Shown piece by piece: positions 1 through 30,737 of a stretch of 33,932 nucleotides of DNA. Where the stretch lies: positions 1 to 33,932 of the forward strand of contig JAISKM010000151.1 in the NCBI GenBank assembly GCA_031261285.1, written 5' to 3'. The notes below the pieces were generated by a model. That model searched no databases and was not told the origin of the DNA. It saw only the letters and a list, made by a program, of their open reading frames with translations. The stretch comes from Candidatus Symbiothrix sp. (GTDB lineage Bacteria > Bacteroidota > Bacteroidia > Bacteroidales > Azobacteroidaceae). Position 1 is the first letter of the stretch; every line of letters starts with the position of its first letter. The position numbers were made by a program, and so were the translations under genes.

Positions 1-567
1 GATGTCACGTCTACGTGGACGGCTTTAGGCAGTTCGGGTGGTGGTACTTACACCTGTAGCGGTCAAGGTACAGGTACAATCACAGGTCTTTCCGGCAATA
101 CGTATTGCACGGCTACGTATCCGGATGCAACTACGGATTTGAAAAACCTTCGCTGGACGATCAGTAATTTGATGGAAGCTGGTGAGAGTGCCACGAATTA
201 TGAGGATCAAACCGAAGACCGGGGCTATTACTACACTTGGGCGCAAGCCAAGCCTACAGGCGATGATGACATCTGTAAGAAACACTTAAATCGCTATTAC
301 CGCATTCCCACTGATGCCGACTGGGCGTTACTGATAGCCGGCTATGCGTCGATGACAGAAGAAGAAAAAGCCGCTTGGAAAGGGATGTCTTCTCTGGCCG
401 GCTTTCGCCACAGTAATGGCACGTGGCTTAACTGGGGTTCCAATGGCTATTGGTGGAGTAGTTCGGTGACGGATAAGGGTTACTCTCTTGAAAACACCGG
501 CTCGTGGATAACCAATCTAAGCAGGACGGACTTTTGGTTTTCAGTGCGCTGTGTGCGAAATATTTAA
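1..567 (+). CDS. FISUMP-domain surface protein, 3' end only
   Basis: The reading frame is open from base 1 to a TAA at 565-567, so only the last 188 residues are seen and the true start lies outside the window; an internal TTG at 139 is not the likely start. The C-terminal part matches the Fibrobacter succinogenes major paralogous domain: a YYTWAQAK stretch, RIPTDADW, then a tryptophan-rich GYWWSSS block and the closing FSVRCVRNI. The upstream part is rich in Gly, Thr and Ser, as in a linker or Ig-like repeat of a secreted protein. These proteins are usually exported lipoproteins or surface proteins of unknown function in Bacteroidota. The family call is good; the function is unknown. Confidence 0.8.
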   Translation, partial: DVTSTWTALGSSGGGTYTCSGQGTGTITGLSGNTYCTATYPDATTDLKNLRWTISNLMEAGESATNYEDQTEDRGYYYTWAQAKPTGDDDICKKHLNRYYRIPTDADWALLIAGYASMTEEEKAAWKGMSSLAGFRHSNGTWLNWGSNGYWWSSSVTDKGYSLENTGSWITNLSRTDFWFSVRCVRNI

Positions 568-736
568 GCACACAACTAAACGAACATCTGTTTATCTGCT
601 GGGCTTTCAGCCCGCAAACGGGATGGATGTTCGTCATCCCTATCACCCCAGGCGATGCCTGGGGCTAGGATATACGACCCTTTCAGGGTAAACAACATAC
701 CAAGTAGGCTGCAAGCCTTACAGATCCTAGCCCAAC

Positions 737-878
737 GGCAACGCCTTGGGTAACGTAATGATCACTGGCAACGCCTTGATAATGTGACGGTCACCGGCAA
801 CGCCTTGGGTAACGTAATGATCACCGGCAACGCCTTGGGCAATGTGTCGGTAATGGCAACGTCTTGGATAATAATTGG
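737..878. repeat. Tandem array, about five 29-30 bp units
   Basis: Units begin with GGCAACGCCTT at 737, 767, 796, 826 and (slightly changed) 855, giving periods of 30, 29, 30 and 29 bases. The first unit is the right half of the palindrome at 731-750, so the array appears to have grown from a REP-like element. There are no unique spacers, so it is not a CRISPR. Confidence 0.85.
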
Positions 879-965
879 TTTAGAAAGAGCACCCGCACGG
901 GTTTTTGTACATAGTTTCGTTTCGTTTTTCCCAAACGGGTCTCTTTCTTTTTCAAGAATTTTTTG

Positions 966-973
966 TATCTTTG
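966..973 (+). promoter_or_regulatory. -7 box of VOC/kdsC promoter
   Basis: TATCTTTG matches the Bacteroidota -7 consensus TAnnTTTG and lies 34 bases before the ATG at 1008. No clear -33 TTG is visible, so this rests on the -7 box only. Confidence 0.55.
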
Positions 974-1007
974 TAGCCGTAAAAAATGATCATTAAAATA
1001 AAAAGGT

Positions 1008-1385
1008 ATGAAAAGTGTATTTCTTGGAGTGGATCATCCCGCTATTGCAGCGAAGGATGCGGACGCGTTGACAAAATGGTATTGCGATGTGTTGGGCTAT
1101 GAAGTGTTGGCAAAAAATGACCAACCCACATACATTATTAAAGCTCCCGACGGCAGTTTTCTTGAGATCATGCCGGATGACGGTTCTCCTCAGACGAAGC
1201 GTGAGGTGCGCACCCCGGGATGGTCGCATTTGGCACTGCGCGTAAGTGATATGGATAAAGCCATTGCTGCATTAGACAAACATCATGTGTCTTGGATTAC
1301 GGATGAATTTGAGGCTCTTGGCGGCGGACGTATCCGTAATTTCACCGATCCGGACGGTAATCTGCTCCAAATTCTTCAAAGGTAA
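1008..1385 (+). CDS. VOC/glyoxalase-family protein
   Basis: This 125-residue protein is one vicinal-oxygen-chelate domain of two beta-alpha-beta-beta-beta modules. Its first module starts LGVDHPAIAAKD with an early His, a middle segment has GSFLEIMP with a Glu, a second half has GWSHLALRV with a His, and the end is FTDPDGNLLQILQ. These His/Glu positions are the usual metal ligands, so it could be a glyoxalase I-like or other metal-dependent lyase or dioxygenase. The substrate cannot be told. The next gene, kdsC, starts four bases after the stop, so the two are probably cotranscribed from the promoter near 970; a functional link with Kdo synthesis is not evident. Confidence 0.85.
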   Translation: MKSVFLGVDHPAIAAKDADALTKWYCDVLGYEVLAKNDQPTYIIKAPDGSFLEIMPDDGSPQTKREVRTPGWSHLALRVSDMDKAIAALDKHHVSWITDEFEALGGGRIRNFTDPDGNLLQILQR

Positions 1386-1389
1386 ATTC

Positions 1390-1911
1390 ATGAGCACGAT
1401 CAATCACGATTTGACAACAATCAAGGCCTTTGTCTTTGACATAGACGGTGTTTTGTCAGGCGAAACAATTCCCCTTCATCCAAACGGCGAACCGATGCGA
1501 TTTGCCAACACGAAAGATGGGTATGCGATGGCAACAGCTGCCCGGCAAGGCTTTGTGTTGGGGATCATCACGGGGAGCAACACGGAGGCAGTGCGCAAAC
1601 GCTACGAAGGGCTTGGTTTTAAGTATATTTATCAAAAATCGAAACGCAAATTAGACGATTTGCACGATTTTATACAAAAAACAGGCCTGAAAGCGGAAGA
1701 TATTTGTTACGTGGGCGATGATATTCCGGACTCCGAATGTCTGCAAGCGGTAGGCCTGCCTGCCTGCCCGGCCGATGCAGTGCCCGAAATCAAAGCTGTC
1801 TCCAAATACATTTCGCACAAAAATGGCGGCGACGGCGTGGGGCGCGACATCATTGAGCAAGTGCTCAAAGCCCAAGATAAGTGGCCGCTGACGGGGAATG
1901 CGTCGTGGTAA
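1390..1911 (+). CDS. kdsC: KdsC-like 3-deoxy-D-manno-octulosonate 8-phosphate phosphatase
   Basis: KdsC removes phosphate from Kdo 8-phosphate in the cytoplasm, giving Kdo for the lipopolysaccharide core. The 173-residue protein has HAD motif I FDIDGVLS near residue 15, ITGSNTEAV (motif II) and YVGDDIPDSE (motif IV), with no cap domain, as in the C0 HAD/KdsC family. The C-terminal KYISHKNGGDGVGRD and the closing stretch around KAQDKW are typical of Bacteroidales KdsC. I chose the ATG at 1390 because it gives the family's usual N-terminus, four bases after the VOC gene; the frame is open upstream to 1285 only as overlap. It ends two bases from the convergent acyltransferase gene. Confidence 0.88.
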   Translation: MSTINHDLTTIKAFVFDIDGVLSGETIPLHPNGEPMRFANTKDGYAMATAARQGFVLGIITGSNTEAVRKRYEGLGFKYIYQKSKRKLDDLHDFIQKTGLKAEDICYVGDDIPDSECLQAVGLPACPADAVPEIKAVSKYISHKNGGDGVGRDIIEQVLKAQDKWPLTGNASW

Positions 1912-2764: not shown

Positions 2765-4063
2765 TTAATCTACGAAATCAATGGTTTCTTCACCAATGAT
2801 TTGACGCAGGGTATTTTTCATTTTCACGGATTGGATGAACAAATCGTGTTCTGCGATGTGTTCGTTGTCGTGCATCGGGCTCTTGAAATAGAACGACAGC
2901 CATGATTGGATGCCGCTGAATCCGGCACGTTTAGCCAAGTCAGACAGCAACACCAAGTCCAAGCACAACGGCGCAGCCAAGATAGAGTCGCGACACAAGA
3001 AATTCACTTTCAACTGCATCGGATAACCCAACCAGCCAAAAATGTCGATGTTGTCCCACCCTTCTTTGTTGTCTTTGCGAGGCGGATAGTAGTTGATACG
3101 CACCTTGTGGTAAATGTTTCCGTACAATTCGGGATACAATTCCGGTTGCAGGATATTGTCGACGACCGACAATTTCGACACTTCTTTTGTTTTGAATGAA
3201 CCCGGATCGTCCAATACTTCGCCGTCGCGATTGCCCAAGATATTGTCTGAGAACCAGCCGTTCAAACCAAGCATCCGGGTTTTGAACATTGGACTCAGAA
3301 CGGTTTTCAACATCGTTTGACCTGTTTTGAAGTCTTTTCCCGAAATAGGTGTCTGCGTTTGAGCAGCCAAATCCCACATGGCAGGAAAATCGACCGTTGT
3401 GTTAGGCGCACCATTAATAAATGGAATACCTTCTTCCACAGCCGCGTAAGCGTAAATCAAAGAGGGCGAAATCTGGTCACTATTAGGCTCTTTCATCGCC
3501 TTTTGCAACGCAGGAATAGATTGATGCACATCTGAAAGCGGCAAATACACCTCAGTGGAGCCGCACCAAATCACCACGATACGATCGCAGTTGTTTTTCG
3601 CTTTAAACTCTTGAATATCTTTGCGCACAAGTTCCTTCAAATCCCATTTGGTAGGAGCCGATTTCACCCACGTGCCGTGCAAACGTTTCACAAAACTTTG
3701 GTCAAAAACGGCTTTCATCGGTTTGATAGCCGACAATTCGTCTTTTACTTTGTCCAAATCTTCAACCGTCAACACTTCTGCGTGACGCGCCGCTTCGTAG
3801 GCATTGTCCTCAAAAATATCCCAGCCACCAAAAACGATGTCTTTCAAATCTGCCAATGGCACCACGTCCTTGATTTTGGGGAAACGATTTTCTTCTCTTT
3901 TGCCCAGACGCATTGTTCCTAATTGCGTCAACGAACCTACAGGCACGCCTTGACCCTTGCGAGCCAGCAATGTTCCTGCAATGAAAGTAGTTGCCACAGC
4001 ACCTACACCTACAGTAAGTACGCCTAATTTTCCTTTAGCGTCTTTCACTTGTACTTTTTTCAT
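2765..4063 (-). CDS. Inositol-3-phosphate synthase
   Basis: This 432-residue enzyme converts glucose 6-phosphate to 1D-myo-inositol 3-phosphate with NAD+, the first committed step of inositol-lipid synthesis. The N-terminus has the NAD-binding GVGAVAT glycine loop of a Rossmann fold, preceded by a short Lys-rich stretch. Further signs are VIWCGSTEVY, EEGIPFINGAPNTTVD, SGKDFKTGQTMLK and GWFSDNILGNRDG, the last two matching the catalytic region of this family. Its start is 21 bases after the end of the phosphatidyltransferase/HAD gene, so the two are translated from one message. In Bacteroides thetaiotaomicron a similar synthase sits beside a CDP-alcohol transferase in the inositol-lipid cluster, which supports the reading. 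Confidence 0.92.
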   Translation of the reverse strand: MKKVQVKDAKGKLGVLTVGVGAVATTFIAGTLLARKGQGVPVGSLTQLGTMRLGKREENRFPKIKDVVPLADLKDIVFGGWDIFEDNAYEAARHAEVLTVEDLDKVKDELSAIKPMKAVFDQSFVKRLHGTWVKSAPTKWDLKELVRKDIQEFKAKNNCDRIVVIWCGSTEVYLPLSDVHQSIPALQKAMKEPNSDQISPSLIYAYAAVEEGIPFINGAPNTTVDFPAMWDLAAQTQTPISGKDFKTGQTMLKTVLSPMFKTRMLGLNGWFSDNILGNRDGEVLDDPGSFKTKEVSKLSVVDNILQPELYPELYGNIYHKVRINYYPPRKDNKEGWDNIDIFGWLGYPMQLKVNFLCRDSILAAPLCLDLVLLSDLAKRAGFSGIQSWLSFYFKSPMHDNEHIAEHDLFIQSVKMKNTLRQIIGEETIDFVD

Positions 4064-4084: not shown

Positions 4085-5797
4085 TCAATCTATCCGTCCT
4101 TGCGGGTCAAGAACGCAATGACATAACTCCTTGAAATCTTCAATAATCGCGCCGGGCTGCTTGCCGGGGATTTCCTCGTCCCAACCCTGACCTTTCAACC
4201 AGATGGTTTGACAGCCTAAGGACTGTGCGGGGGCGATGTCTTTGCGATAGGAATCGCCTATCACAACCACCTCGCCGGGTGTTAATCCCAACGCCTTGAC
4301 ACCCAACGCAAAAATTGCGGGGTCGGGCTTTCGAACGTTTACCACAGCCGATTCAACGATGCTTTTAAACAACGTATCCAAACCAAAATCGTTCAAAACC
4401 GCCTCAATGTTGCCATAAAAATTAGAAACCAACACCATAGGGTATTTGGCGGCTAATTTTTGCAATGTCGGTATTGCATTTTCAACGGTTGAACGTGCAA
4501 AGTTATAACTTTGATTTGTAATTTGCAAAGAAAATTGAGTAATTTTTTCATTTTTTGGCAAAATTTCTTGTTCAACCAAGAAATTCAGCTCACTTTCGAT
4601 CTTTTTGTGCAATAAATTTCGGAAATTATCGTCTGATTTGATGACCGGATGGGTTGCTAAATAACGTTCGCCATAGACGTAAGCTTCGCGAAATTGTTCC
4701 TTAGAAATGGGAACTCCTGCCGCGACATACCCCTCCCACAACACTTCGGCCCAATGTTTACCATTGCTGTCAATTGTGGCACCGTAATCAAAAATCAGTC
4801 CTTTGACTTCTGAGAAAGGCAGGTCATTCGCTTCAGGGGATTTCCGCCTGCGCGGGAATGACACGTCACTCTCTGTCATTCCCGTGCCCACGGGAACCCC
4901 ATCCAATTGAGTGGTCAATTGGCTACAGATTTTTTCGTATTTCTGCAACATATATATAAGCATCCCGTTCATCACCGTCAATTCAAAGATGAAATAAATC
5001 GCCGGAAAATTGATAAGTACGCTAATAAACAGCACGATAGCACGCAAGTTGAACGACAATAGATTGGTGTAAGGGATAAGCGGCAAACTTTGGGCGCGAT
5101 AGTCCGCGCAAAAGGTTGCAGGCGCCTGTCCGTCGTATTTCGTTTGGATGACGTGCAGCATTTTTTGCAATGCGGGCGTCATCGCCTCCTGTCCGCGCGT
5201 GTAATTCAGATACGTGTATTCAAAAAATTTCACAAACGGTTTTTCTCGCCAGGAAATAGCAGGATATTTGGCAGCCAAATCTTTAGAGTTGTCGAGTTCG
5301 CTCCCACTTTTACCTTTTAAAAAAAGGAGGTGCACATTGCGAAAATAGTCTGCCATCGCCGCCTGTTTGGTGTGCGAATAGCCGGCTGCCACCGCCAAAA
5401 GCAAGATTCCCAGACTCCAAGGGTTCCACAACCGGACAATAATGGCAATGTAGATGGCGATAAACCAAAAGTCGCCGCACGCACCATCCAGGATGCGTCC
5501 AAGCTCCGATTTTTGATTGGTCATGCGTGCCAGTTGACCGTCGGCACTGTCATACGAATTGGCCCAAATCAACAGAAAAATGCCCACGAGATTTATCCAA
5601 ACGCTCGTAAACCCAAAACAAACACCCGCTGCCACGCCGATAAAAATGGACGCAATCGTAATCTGATTGGGCGTCACACCCCATTTGTGAAACAGACACG
5701 CCCACCAATACCCGATTGGGCGGTAGAAATGAATATCTATAAACTCCTCTGTATCAGTGGATTTGAGCGTCGATTCTAATGCCGGTAGTTTCTCCAT
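4085..5797 (-). CDS. CDP-alcohol phosphatidyltransferase fused to a HAD hydrolase domain
   Basis: The 570-residue product has two parts. Residues 1-295 form a polytopic membrane enzyme with the CDP-alcohol signature DSADGQLAR followed by GRILDGACGD; this family joins inositol phosphate (or another alcohol) to CDP-diacylglycerol. The last Asp of the canonical motif is one residue later than usual. Residues from about 325 on form a HAD domain with GLIFDYGATID, VLVSNFYGN, RKPDPAIF and VIGDSYRKD. In HAD motif I the second Asp is Gly, so ordinary phosphatase acid/base catalysis is doubtful. The joint (residues about 298-320) is encoded by a small palindromic repeat (4840-4898). The neighbour inositol-3-phosphate synthase points to phosphatidylinositol (phosphate) synthesis. 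Confidence 0.85.
   Translation of the reverse strand: MEKLPALESTLKSTDTEEFIDIHFYRPIGYWWACLFHKWGVTPNQITIASIFIGVAAGVCFGFTSVWINLVGIFLLIWANSYDSADGQLARMTNQKSELGRILDGACGDFWFIAIYIAIIVRLWNPWSLGILLLAVAAGYSHTKQAAMADYFRNVHLLFLKGKSGSELDNSKDLAAKYPAISWREKPFVKFFEYTYLNYTRGQEAMTPALQKMLHVIQTKYDGQAPATFCADYRAQSLPLIPYTNLLSFNLRAIVLFISVLINFPAIYFIFELTVMNGMLIYMLQKYEKICSQLTTQLDGVPVGTGMTESDVSFPRRRKSPEANDLPFSEVKGLIFDYGATIDSNGKHWAEVLWEGYVAAGVPISKEQFREAYVYGERYLATHPVIKSDDNFRNLLHKKIESELNFLVEQEILPKNEKITQFSLQITNQSYNFARSTVENAIPTLQKLAAKYPMVLVSNFYGNIEAVLNDFGLDTLFKSIVESAVVNVRKPDPAIFALGVKALGLTPGEVVVIGDSYRKDIAPAQSLGCQTIWLKGQGWDEEIPGKQPGAIIEDFKELCHCVLDPQGRID
4840..4898. repeat. dRS3-like palindrome pair within the fusion gene
   Basis: Two short palindromes, 4841-4858 (TTTCCGC/GCGGGAA) and 4879-4896 (TTCCCGT/ACGGGAA), face each other, and CGGGAATGACA at 4854-4864 is repeated inverted at 4875-4885. 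The pattern ATTCCC-n-GGGAA is that of widespread dRS3-type small repeats. It is translated in frame as a Pro/Arg-rich linker (SFPRRRKSPE). Confidence 0.8.
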
Positions 5798-15951: not shown

Positions 15952-16111
15952 GACAAAAAGTTTTGATTATTAACACATTTTGGGAAAAAATGTCTGCACT
16001 GTGTCATACAGTCCAATAGTTTCGCCATCATGTTTATTCACACCAAATATATGCCAAACTGCTGTCTTCATAACGTTTGAATTTATACCCGGCATCATTC
16101 ATCAGCGCACT

Positions 16112-16244
16112 GTAGGGGCGACCCTTGCGGTCGCCCCAAATGCGGTCGCCCAAAATACGGTTGCCCAAAATACGGTCGTCCCAAATGCGGTCGCCCCAAA
16201 TGCGGTCGTTAACAATAATGGGCGACCGCAAGGGTCGCCCCTAC
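16112..16244. repeat. REP palindrome split by a 15-bp tandem array
   Basis: Perfect 25-bp arms GTAGGGGCGACCCTTGCGG... lie at 16112-16136 and, inverted, at 16220-16244. Between them, starting inside the left arm, are six units of 15 bases at 16127, 16142, 16157, 16172, 16187 and 16202 with consensus GCGGTCGCCCCAAAT. Such an element would normally have a loop of a few bases; here it has been expanded. Confidence 0.9.
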
Positions 16245-16292
16245 GGACGGATTTTTTTATGGGCATCGTCGAAAATTTCAAACAATCGTTTC

Positions 16293-29471: not shown

Positions 29472-30737
29472 ATGAAAGAATTTATTCTCACAGATACAAT
29501 CACGGAAAATGCAGTACTCGTTGGGCTGATTACGCCTACTCAGAACGAACAAAAATCCAAAGAATATTTGGACGAATTGGACTTTCTGGCGGACACAGCG
29601 GGCATTCACACCGTTAAACGCTTTACGCAGCGCGTGGAACAGGCGCATCCTGTCACGTTTGTTGGGACGGGGAAATTGCAGGAAATCAAAGCCTACACCG
29701 AAGACGAGGATAACGAAATCGGGATGGTGATTTTCGACGACGAACTGAGTCCCAAGCAGTTGCGCAACCTCGAAGCCGAACTGAAAGTGAAAATCATGGA
29801 CAGAACGAGCCTAATTCTCGATATTTTTGCAGCCCGTGCACAAACCGCAGACGCCAAAACACAAGTTGAATTGGCGCAATATAACTATATGTTGCCCCGT
29901 CTGAAACGCCTGTGGACGCACTTGGAGCGACAAAGTGGTAGCGGTAGCGGCGGATTGCGAATGCGTGGACCCGGTGAAACGCAGTTGGAAACCGACCGGC
30001 GAATTATTTTGCACAAGATTTCTAAACTCAAAGAGGATTTGAAAGACATTGACAAACAAAAGGCCAATCAACGACAAAATCGAGGTAAATTGGTGCGCGT
30101 GGCACTTGTGGGCTACACCAACGTCGGAAAATCCACCTTAATGAATTTGTTAAGCAAATCCGATGTGTTTGCCGAAAATAAACTGTTTGCGACGCTCGAC
30201 ACGACCGTGCGTAAAGTTTCTATCGAAAATCTCGCTTTTTTACTGACTGATACGGTTGGATTTATTCGCAAACTGCCGACCGAACTCATTGAGGCGTTCA
30301 AATCCACCCTCGACGAGGTGCGTGAAGCCGATTTGCTCGTGCACGTGGTCGATATTTCGCATCCCGCATTCGAGGAGCAGATGGAAACCGTTACAAAAAC
30401 ATTGAACGAAATCATTAATCCCGTAGGGGCGGGTTTTACACCCGCCCTTACGGGGAAACCGACCATTATTGTGTTCAACAAGATTGACGCGTTTGAACAC
30501 ATCGAAAAAGATGCCGACGACCTCACGCCGCGCTCCAAAGAAAACATCCCTCTGGAGGAGTTGAAGCGTACTTGGATGAATAACTTGCACGAATGTTGCA
30601 CGTTTATTTCAGCAAAAGATAAGGAAAACATCGAAGAATTGAAAGCCCTTTTATATCAAAAAGTGAAAGAAATTCACGTCGAACGCTTCCCCTACAACGA
30701 TTTTCTGTATCAAGATTACAGCGAAGAAGCGGAATAA
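29472..30737 (+). CDS. hflX: GTPase HflX
   Basis: HflX is a ribosome-associated GTPase that splits stalled 70S ribosomes under stress. The 421-residue protein has the N-terminal HflX domain (HPVTFVGTGKLQEIK, then DELSPKQLRNLE), the Gly-rich linker GSGSGGLRMRGPGETQLETD, and the GTPase domain with G1 GYTNVGKST, G3 DTVGFIRKLP and G4 NKIDAF. Between the G3 part and G4, at residues about 317-328, a 35-base palindromic repeat is translated in frame as NPVGAGFTPALTG just before KPTIIVFNKID. Everything else fits normal length. Base composition is like the chromosomal genes, unlike the AT-rich flanks. Confidence 0.93.
   Translation: MKEFILTDTITENAVLVGLITPTQNEQKSKEYLDELDFLADTAGIHTVKRFTQRVEQAHPVTFVGTGKLQEIKAYTEDEDNEIGMVIFDDELSPKQLRNLEAELKVKIMDRTSLILDIFAARAQTADAKTQVELAQYNYMLPRLKRLWTHLERQSGSGSGGLRMRGPGETQLETDRRIILHKISKLKEDLKDIDKQKANQRQNRGKLVRVALVGYTNVGKSTLMNLLSKSDVFAENKLFATLDTTVRKVSIENLAFLLTDTVGFIRKLPTELIEAFKSTLDEVREADLLVHVVDISHPAFEEQMETVTKTLNEIINPVGAGFTPALTGKPTIIVFNKIDAFEHIEKDADDLTPRSKENIPLEELKRTWMNNLHECCTFISAKDKENIEELKALLYQKVKEIHVERFPYNDFLYQDYSEEAE
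30420..30454. repeat. REP-like palindrome inside hflX
   Basis: Arms CCCGTAGGGGCGGGT (30420-30434) and ACCCGCCCTTACGGG (30440-30454) pair at 14 of 15 positions. Same family as 2734-2754. Confidence 0.9.

Follow-up and report, generated by a model that had tools for sequence, protein, structure and literature searches.

A palindromic repeat encodes the linker of a fused phosphatidyltransferase-HAD protein in Candidatus Symbiothrix

One open reading frame of a Candidatus Symbiothrix sp. genome encodes both a CDP-alcohol phosphatidyltransferase (PT) and a HAD protein, with a small palindromic repeat at their joint. Did the repeat make the fusion, or did it arrive in a linker that already existed? 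A first-pass annotation had proposed the former, with insertion at the gene boundary removing the stop and the start. Here we analyze the locus in its window (the whole stretch of 33,932 nucleotides of contig JAISKM010000151.1), in the genome and in relatives. The PT-HAD fusion with a repeat at the joint is confirmed as a real observation.

The fused gene and its surroundings

The frame of the fused ORF (5797 to 4085, minus strand) is uninterrupted across the PT/HAD joint. The same fused frame occurs at the same place in L040 (MS495-25), a separate record that is ~84% identical to the window over 3.5 kb. The features of the locus, in window positions, are:

2768-4063, minus strand: myo-inositol-1-phosphate synthase (MIPS; PF07994 347.6 bits, PF01658 110.2 bits), the next gene, on the same strand as the fused ORF
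4088-5797, minus strand: fused PT-HAD ORF, 570 aa, with N-terminal PT and C-terminal HAD; stop codon at 4085-4087
4919-5797, minus strand: PT part, aa 1-293 (PF01066 39.1 bits, cut-off 22), with helices up to aa 299 and the native C-terminal tail next
4898-4918, minus strand: PT C-terminal tail LTTQLDG, which aligns with the end of unfused PT proteins, immediately before their stop
4829-4900, minus strand: REP-encoded linker peptide GVPVGTGMTESDVSFPRRRKSPEA (from the translation)
4874-4900, no strand assigned: REP unit B, a dRS3-like palindrome with 3 mismatches to the 24-nt REP pattern, common to the window and L040
4837-4863, no strand assigned: REP unit A, a dRS3-like palindrome that L040 lacks, with 1 mismatch to the REP pattern
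4877-4879, minus strand: in-frame ATG within the linker, first codon of MTESDVSF (4856-4879) and a possible separate HAD start
4088-4828, minus strand: HAD part with its N-terminal approach (PF00702/PF13419 and fold); the conserved core starts at VKG (aa 331)
4098-4122, minus strand: a different REP, type 2 (GTCATTGCGGGC and following letters; 4 mismatches), from which the HAD C-terminal tail CHCVLDPQG is translated

Pfam places CDP-OH_P_transf at aa 42-134 and the HAD families inside aa 415-558 (PF00702 at 55 bits, cut-off 26.4). By sequence, the PT part matches the solved CDP-alcohol phosphotransferase 4o6m (E 2.1e-7). An AlphaFold2 model of the full fused ORF (mean pLDDT 84.4, pTM 0.54), built on an alignment of 27 rows of which only 6 cover the HAD region, has the PT helices ending at aa 299 and a HAD fold from aa 333. 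An alternative mixed alignment with HAD fragments was set aside, as HAD pieces seemed to be aligned onto PT. The best Foldseek match is the HAD protein 3qnm (E 1.5e-7, prob 1.00, TMt 0.60), and all displayed matches are HAD proteins. Residues 301-326, where pLDDT is below 50, are predicted to be a disordered joint between two confident domains. The pLDDT is also below 50 at aa 566-570, the end of the C-terminal tail that is partly encoded by REP type 2; a REP type-2 sequence is found at the HAD C-terminal end in L040 too.

Between the window and L040, which covers the protein only from about aa 139, dN/dS (Nei-Gojobori) is 0.114 for PT (160 codons) and 0.124 for HAD (225 codons). These low values point to purifying selection on both domains.

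PT and HAD adjoin MIPS, and an acyltransferase gene comes after MIPS. The combination of MIPS, CDP-alcohol phosphatidyltransferase and HAD hydrolase is that of the alternative inositol-lipid cluster described for Bacteroides vulgatus and Prevotella (PMC9246714), so far as the sections on that cluster go. Those sections mention no repeat at a PT-HAD joint, and no NTP transferase, a member of their cluster, was recognized by eye in the window ORF list. They propose, as an unproven route, that PT catalyzes synthesis of PI-DAG and that a HAD step then leads towards PI-DHC. By analogy, the fused pair are probably inositol-lipid enzymes.

The PT motif, printed in the cluster sections of the same paper (PMC9246714) as DX2DGX2AR...GX3DX3D, is present in all but its last Asp, where all 60 filled rows have Gly (the other 2 of the 62 are gapped); the residue after this position is Asp in 52 of the 60. 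The motif being incomplete, we file PT by its Pfam score only and do not assume catalysis. The HAD part belongs to its superfamily by Pfam families above cut-off and by fold. Motif I of HAD phosphatases is DxD, and here it reads DYG[A/G]T, with Gly for the second Asp in all 62 rows, so standard phosphatase activity is not assumed for the HAD part. Both families thus lack one canonical active-site Asp across the 62 loci.

The repeat and its units inside genes

As the first-pass annotation had seen, the linker is encoded by a small palindromic repeat, and this repeat is real. The single element described at 4840-4898 is better resolved into two units, A and B, which appear to differ in age and together encode the linker. 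The units are inverted, with arms 78% complementary and a 10 nt gap. As RNA, A and B are predicted to form one hairpin (-37.8 kcal/mol, z -4.75), and 0 of 200 shuffles are as stable. A terminator between two genes is ruled out, as the repeat is not preceded by any stop codon.

The dRS3 core is an exact 20-bp ATTCCCN8GGGAAT, and each window unit has one mismatch to it. At up to 2 mismatches this pattern is not enriched inside the window (2 found against an expectation of 1.55, and 48 of 100 shuffles have at least 2). We call the repeat real because of its copy number in the 2.83-Mb genome. There are 64+70 strand matches to GTCATTCCCGCNNNNGCGGGAATC at up to 3 mismatches (0+0 for the reversed control), and TTCCCGCNNNNGCGGGAA, a palindrome, is matched at up to 2 mismatches 105 times per strand (~105 sites) versus 9 for its control. 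Chance as the origin of the palindrome at the joint is ruled out by this copy number, though the window-only dRS3 count is at chance level.

From the window and 70 regions fetched for matches at up to 2 mismatches in the GTCATTCCCGCNNNNGCGGGAATC search, we collected 86 units with the consensus TGTCATTCCCGCGCAGGCGGGAATCCC, or ATTCCCGC-GCAG-GCGGGAAT in stem-loop form. The consensus agrees with the dRS3 core and has the 8-bp stem beginning A-T and T-A and the 4-nt loop of CGTC-1 REPs (dRS3 family); the high, scattered copy number is also as in that family. The CGTC tag at one end is mostly missing, the first tag base being T in 71 of the 86 units, C in 8, G in 6 and A in 1. We therefore label the repeat CGTC-1-like and do not file it as a CGTC-1 member.

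Di Nocera et al. 2013 (PMC3733652) equate the CGTC-1 family with Neisseria dRS3, and the family as described in the relevant sections of that paper resembles our repeat in its stem, loop and many copies, in dimers that are able to fold together and in some intragenic copies. It is unlike our repeat in its first tag base, and in that elements there are mostly intergenic, whereas 54 of our 86 units lie in ORFs of at least 150 aa. In the window pair the tags point inwards, as they do in 4 of 7 close pairs (window counted); this arrangement, TT in the paper's terms, is rare there for CGTC elements.

The repeat is patchy in the genus, with 123+118 strand matches in G022, 59+54 in G020 and at most 6 in each of 7 other searched genomes. 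The window's genome also contains REP type 2 (96+101 strand matches; control 0+0). A REP mobilized by a RAYT would flank its cognate Y1 transposase. There are two Y1_Tnp genes in the genome; for the one inspected, a REP lies 0.8 kb off inside leuS, and none was seen by eye at the ends of the transposase gene.

The 54 units in long ORFs lie at least 12 codons from the ORF ends; 5 are nearer an end and 27 are outside. By the same ORF test, 1538 of 2000 random window positions are inside, so the repeat mildly avoids long ORFs and shows no preference for them. The 54 units fall in 43 ORFs (from regions L104-L173 and the window), mostly conserved single genes, and across ORFs of the genome type 1 is read in five different frames. 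A Pfam scan covered 40 of the 43 ORFs and named families for 38; the other three are the window ORF, scanned separately, and L116 and L129, near-copies of the HlyD ORFs of L107 and L112. Families with an in-frame REP include LeuRS, PheT, FabD, KsgA, ClpX, MetH, IlvD, Ddl and UxaC (gene names by inspection). Compared with their best solved structures, FabD, KsgA and UxaC are longer by 7, 6 and 5 residues, respectively, at the REP peptide or next to it.

For REP type 2, 87 units were read from 60 regions (zero-mismatch matches and two others). There are 28 inside such ORFs, 16 near an ORF end and 43 outside. The 28 fall in 23 ORFs, and 18 of the 20 that were scanned have Pfam names; the remaining three (L174, L188 and L233) are genes scanned as L166, L147 and L106.

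The PT-HAD joint is part of a wider burden of intragenic REPs in this Bacteroidota genome, resembling that of Rickettsia. The parts of PMC2229807 and PMC10969869 on Rickettsia palindromic elements and MITE-ORF fusions also describe palindromes translated in frame in conserved proteins and apparently tolerated, and the latter counts 44 integrations of the Rickettsia element in R. conorii genes. Those elements are ~150 bp in the review, whereas our units are ~24-27 nt and the window pair 64 nt; the host here is a Bacteroidota and the repeat stands at the joint of two genes. PMC2229807 reviews MITE reading frames that are fused in frame, and its sections on such fusions include no case that joins two normally separate enzymes. 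In titles and abstract openings on REPs and gene fusion, intragenic palindromes, dRS3 and palindromes in termite-gut Bacteroidales, with few subscription journals among them, the present case was not found.

Inspection of the Pfam scans revealed only two REP-type joints of normally separate genes, PT-HAD and a Ham1-PorZ joint in the same genome. In the latter (L130, ORF 1-1614, minus strand), Ham1 (rdgB) and PorZ, which we take to be normally separate genes, share an open frame in which the joint (aa 206-230) is REP-type sequence. The ATG of the signal-peptide-like start of PorZ is located in the repeat.

Fused and separate genes among relatives and the origin of the joint

The protein has a match in 34 of the 58 related genomes searched and, at a stricter threshold, in 26 of 38 genus genomes (the own genome is counted in both); a search of a collection of genome contigs gave 55 loci. 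PT and HAD are indeed normally separate, as initially annotated, with separate genes at 55 of the 62 distinct loci having both domains. The 7 fused loci are the window, L040, L012, L017, L020, L023 and L099. Seven loci that apparently duplicate another record's locus, and loci with one domain only, were left out of the tree.

Often the separate genes are direct neighbors that overlap or have a tiny spacer between them (e.g., L014, L018 and L052). At several other loci (e.g., L089, L027 and L083), a gene of ~320-330 aa lies between them, presumably encoding a lysylphosphatidylglycerol-synthase-like membrane protein. This kind of protein is mentioned near the inositol-lipid cluster in the sections concerned of PMC9246714.

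On the 62-row PT+HAD tree, the fusion label requires three changes, also when well-supported branches alone are used (mean for shuffled labels, 6.7). We read the three as fusion gains, each fused group being surrounded by separate genes on the tree; losses could be among them. Heaver et al. (PMC9246714, section 10) had earlier reported a PT-HAD fusion in Prevotella veroralis. Given this case and the several fused groups on the tree, fusion of the pair recurs, which fits a benefit of joining.

At the L040 joint, a single REP-like unit with 2 mismatches to the pattern occupies the place of unit B. Unit A is missing, and the linker is 48 nt shorter than in the window. The order in L040 is PT tail, REP, about three residues and HAD core, so the REP is nearly the whole non-homologous joint. 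As unit B is common to the window and L040, it is at least as old as their common ancestor. Unit A was probably gained after the split, later than the fusion, unless it was deleted in L040.

L012, L017, L020 and L023 form a clade of four fused loci. Three of them (L017, L020 and L023) have linkers of 18-21 nt without a REP, and the L012 linker contains an exact REP type-2 stem (GTCATTGCGGGC) where its sisters have none. A pattern modeled on the L012 linker has 5+2 matches in G020 (control 0) and none in G018 or G025; its control matches once in G018. The pattern misses the L012 site itself, which has a longer loop. The linker of L099 is long (~50 aa) and is matched by none of the four REP patterns tried.

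Thus 4 of the 7 fusions (L017, L020, L023 and L099) lack a REP by the patterns tried, and these rule out the REP as a general cause of PT-HAD fusion. Fused relatives without the repeat are what the first-pass annotation had named as counting against its proposal. They fall outside the window's clade on the tree, which means that the repeat is not required, and its part in the window lineage is not thereby disproved. Taken together, the loci indicate that a REP is neither required for the fusion nor always first. The part of the proposal that holds is the position, as the REP occupies the place of the PT stop and HAD start of unfused relatives. The clade of the window and MS495-25 has two known members, with no fused relative lacking the REP and no unfused relative carrying it, so the order of events is not observed there.

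For the window's clade, we propose that the ancestor shared by the window species and MS495-25 had PT and HAD as neighboring genes in the same direction, and that unit B, a single CGTC-1-like (dRS3-like) REP, inserted at the boundary between them. A REP is free of stop codons in most frames, and an in-frame peptide would have replaced the PT stop and the HAD start. Unit A would have been added later in the window lineage, lengthening the linker. In the product, a disordered linker would tether a soluble HAD domain to the membrane PT, giving one polypeptide that may carry out successive steps on an inositol lipid. We give this whole account an even chance. We lean slightly towards the REP as maker of the joint because of the positional fit in L040. 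Counting in the same direction are the PT tail before the REP, which aligns with the pre-stop C-terminus of unfused relatives, the REP-type sequence at the Ham1-PorZ joint, the reading of REPs in five frames and the predicted disorder at aa 301-326 between confident domains. The low dN/dS in PT and HAD also speaks for it. The REP-free majority of fusions and the opposite order at L012 count against insertion as the fusing event.

The genes may instead have been fused first, by a small indel or stop loss between tightly spaced neighbors, with the REP inserting later into a tolerant, disordered linker. This order is the one seen in the L012 clade, where four loci are fused and one gained a REP type-2 stem, and the very short or overlapping spacers of unfused relatives suit it. 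In-frame REPs in 43 ORFs, mostly single genes, make a late arrival in a tolerant linker plausible, and unit A probably arrived in this way. L040 keeps almost no non-REP linker that could be an older joint; this weighs little, as L017, L020 and L023, which lack a REP, likewise have joints of just a few residues. We regard fusion before the REP as a serious candidate, somewhat less likely than insertion of the REP as the fusing event. It is improbable that the open frame is merely apparent and that HAD is mainly translated alone from the ATG inside the REP, as PorZ may be. Both species have an in-frame ATG in the linker and the PorZ signal-peptide-like start is directly at the repeat ATG, but ribosomes translating PT should run on into HAD with no stop between the parts, and the L017, L020 and L023 joints have no in-frame ATG, GTG or TTG. 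Some separate HAD could be made from the linker ATG, and a full-length fusion and an internal start can coexist. The assembly is a repeat-rich draft of 171 contigs, which is the one reason to consider an assembly or sequencing artefact at the repeat; with L040, a separate record, fused at the same place and dN/dS low in both domains, we find an artefact scarcely credible.

If insertion of unit B did make the fusion, the locus would show concretely how a small palindromic repeat can give rise to a two-domain enzyme that is then maintained. Even otherwise, the genus is a natural experiment in which one gene pair was apparently fused several times, at joints with and without REPs and in genomes with and without REPs. 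The REP-encoded peptides in dozens of conserved Bacteroidota proteins are a likeness to Rickettsia in a different phylum. We tentatively suggest, while putting the chance at a little under even, that REPs serve here as ready-made joints: they lie at gene ends and are open in most frames, so that insertion at a boundary could give an instant two-domain protein, of which PT-HAD would be one kept by selection, alongside more than 50 conserved ORFs with REP-encoded peptides.

Other repeat-bearing frames

Several further ORFs contain repeats. One (L134, 676-2700, minus strand) joins LpxB and a small methyltransferase domain in one frame, with two REP units at the methyltransferase part and none at the joint. 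The editing domain of the leuS ORF (L094/L132, contig C149) carries an in-frame REP. The ORF stops immediately short of an IS200-like Y1 transposase gene and may be truncated there. The four closely similar HlyD-type ORFs (L107, L112, L116 and L129; two of them Pfam-scanned) have two in-frame REP units each, and each runs off the end of a different contig.

An ORF on contig C144 (L163, 23-1051, plus strand) resembles by eye the gene upstream of PT in L099, and here it is on another contig; it contains REP-like peptides of two types within one short stretch. In the window, the ORF of an HflX-like GTPase contains INPVGAGFTPALTGKP (30414-30461, plus strand), which resembles the peptide of another palindromic repeat. 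A repetitive, palindrome-flanked stretch (16109-16249, plus strand) reads TVGATLAVAPNAVAQ...GRPQGSPLRT, and similar peptides occur in proteins of L151 and L167.
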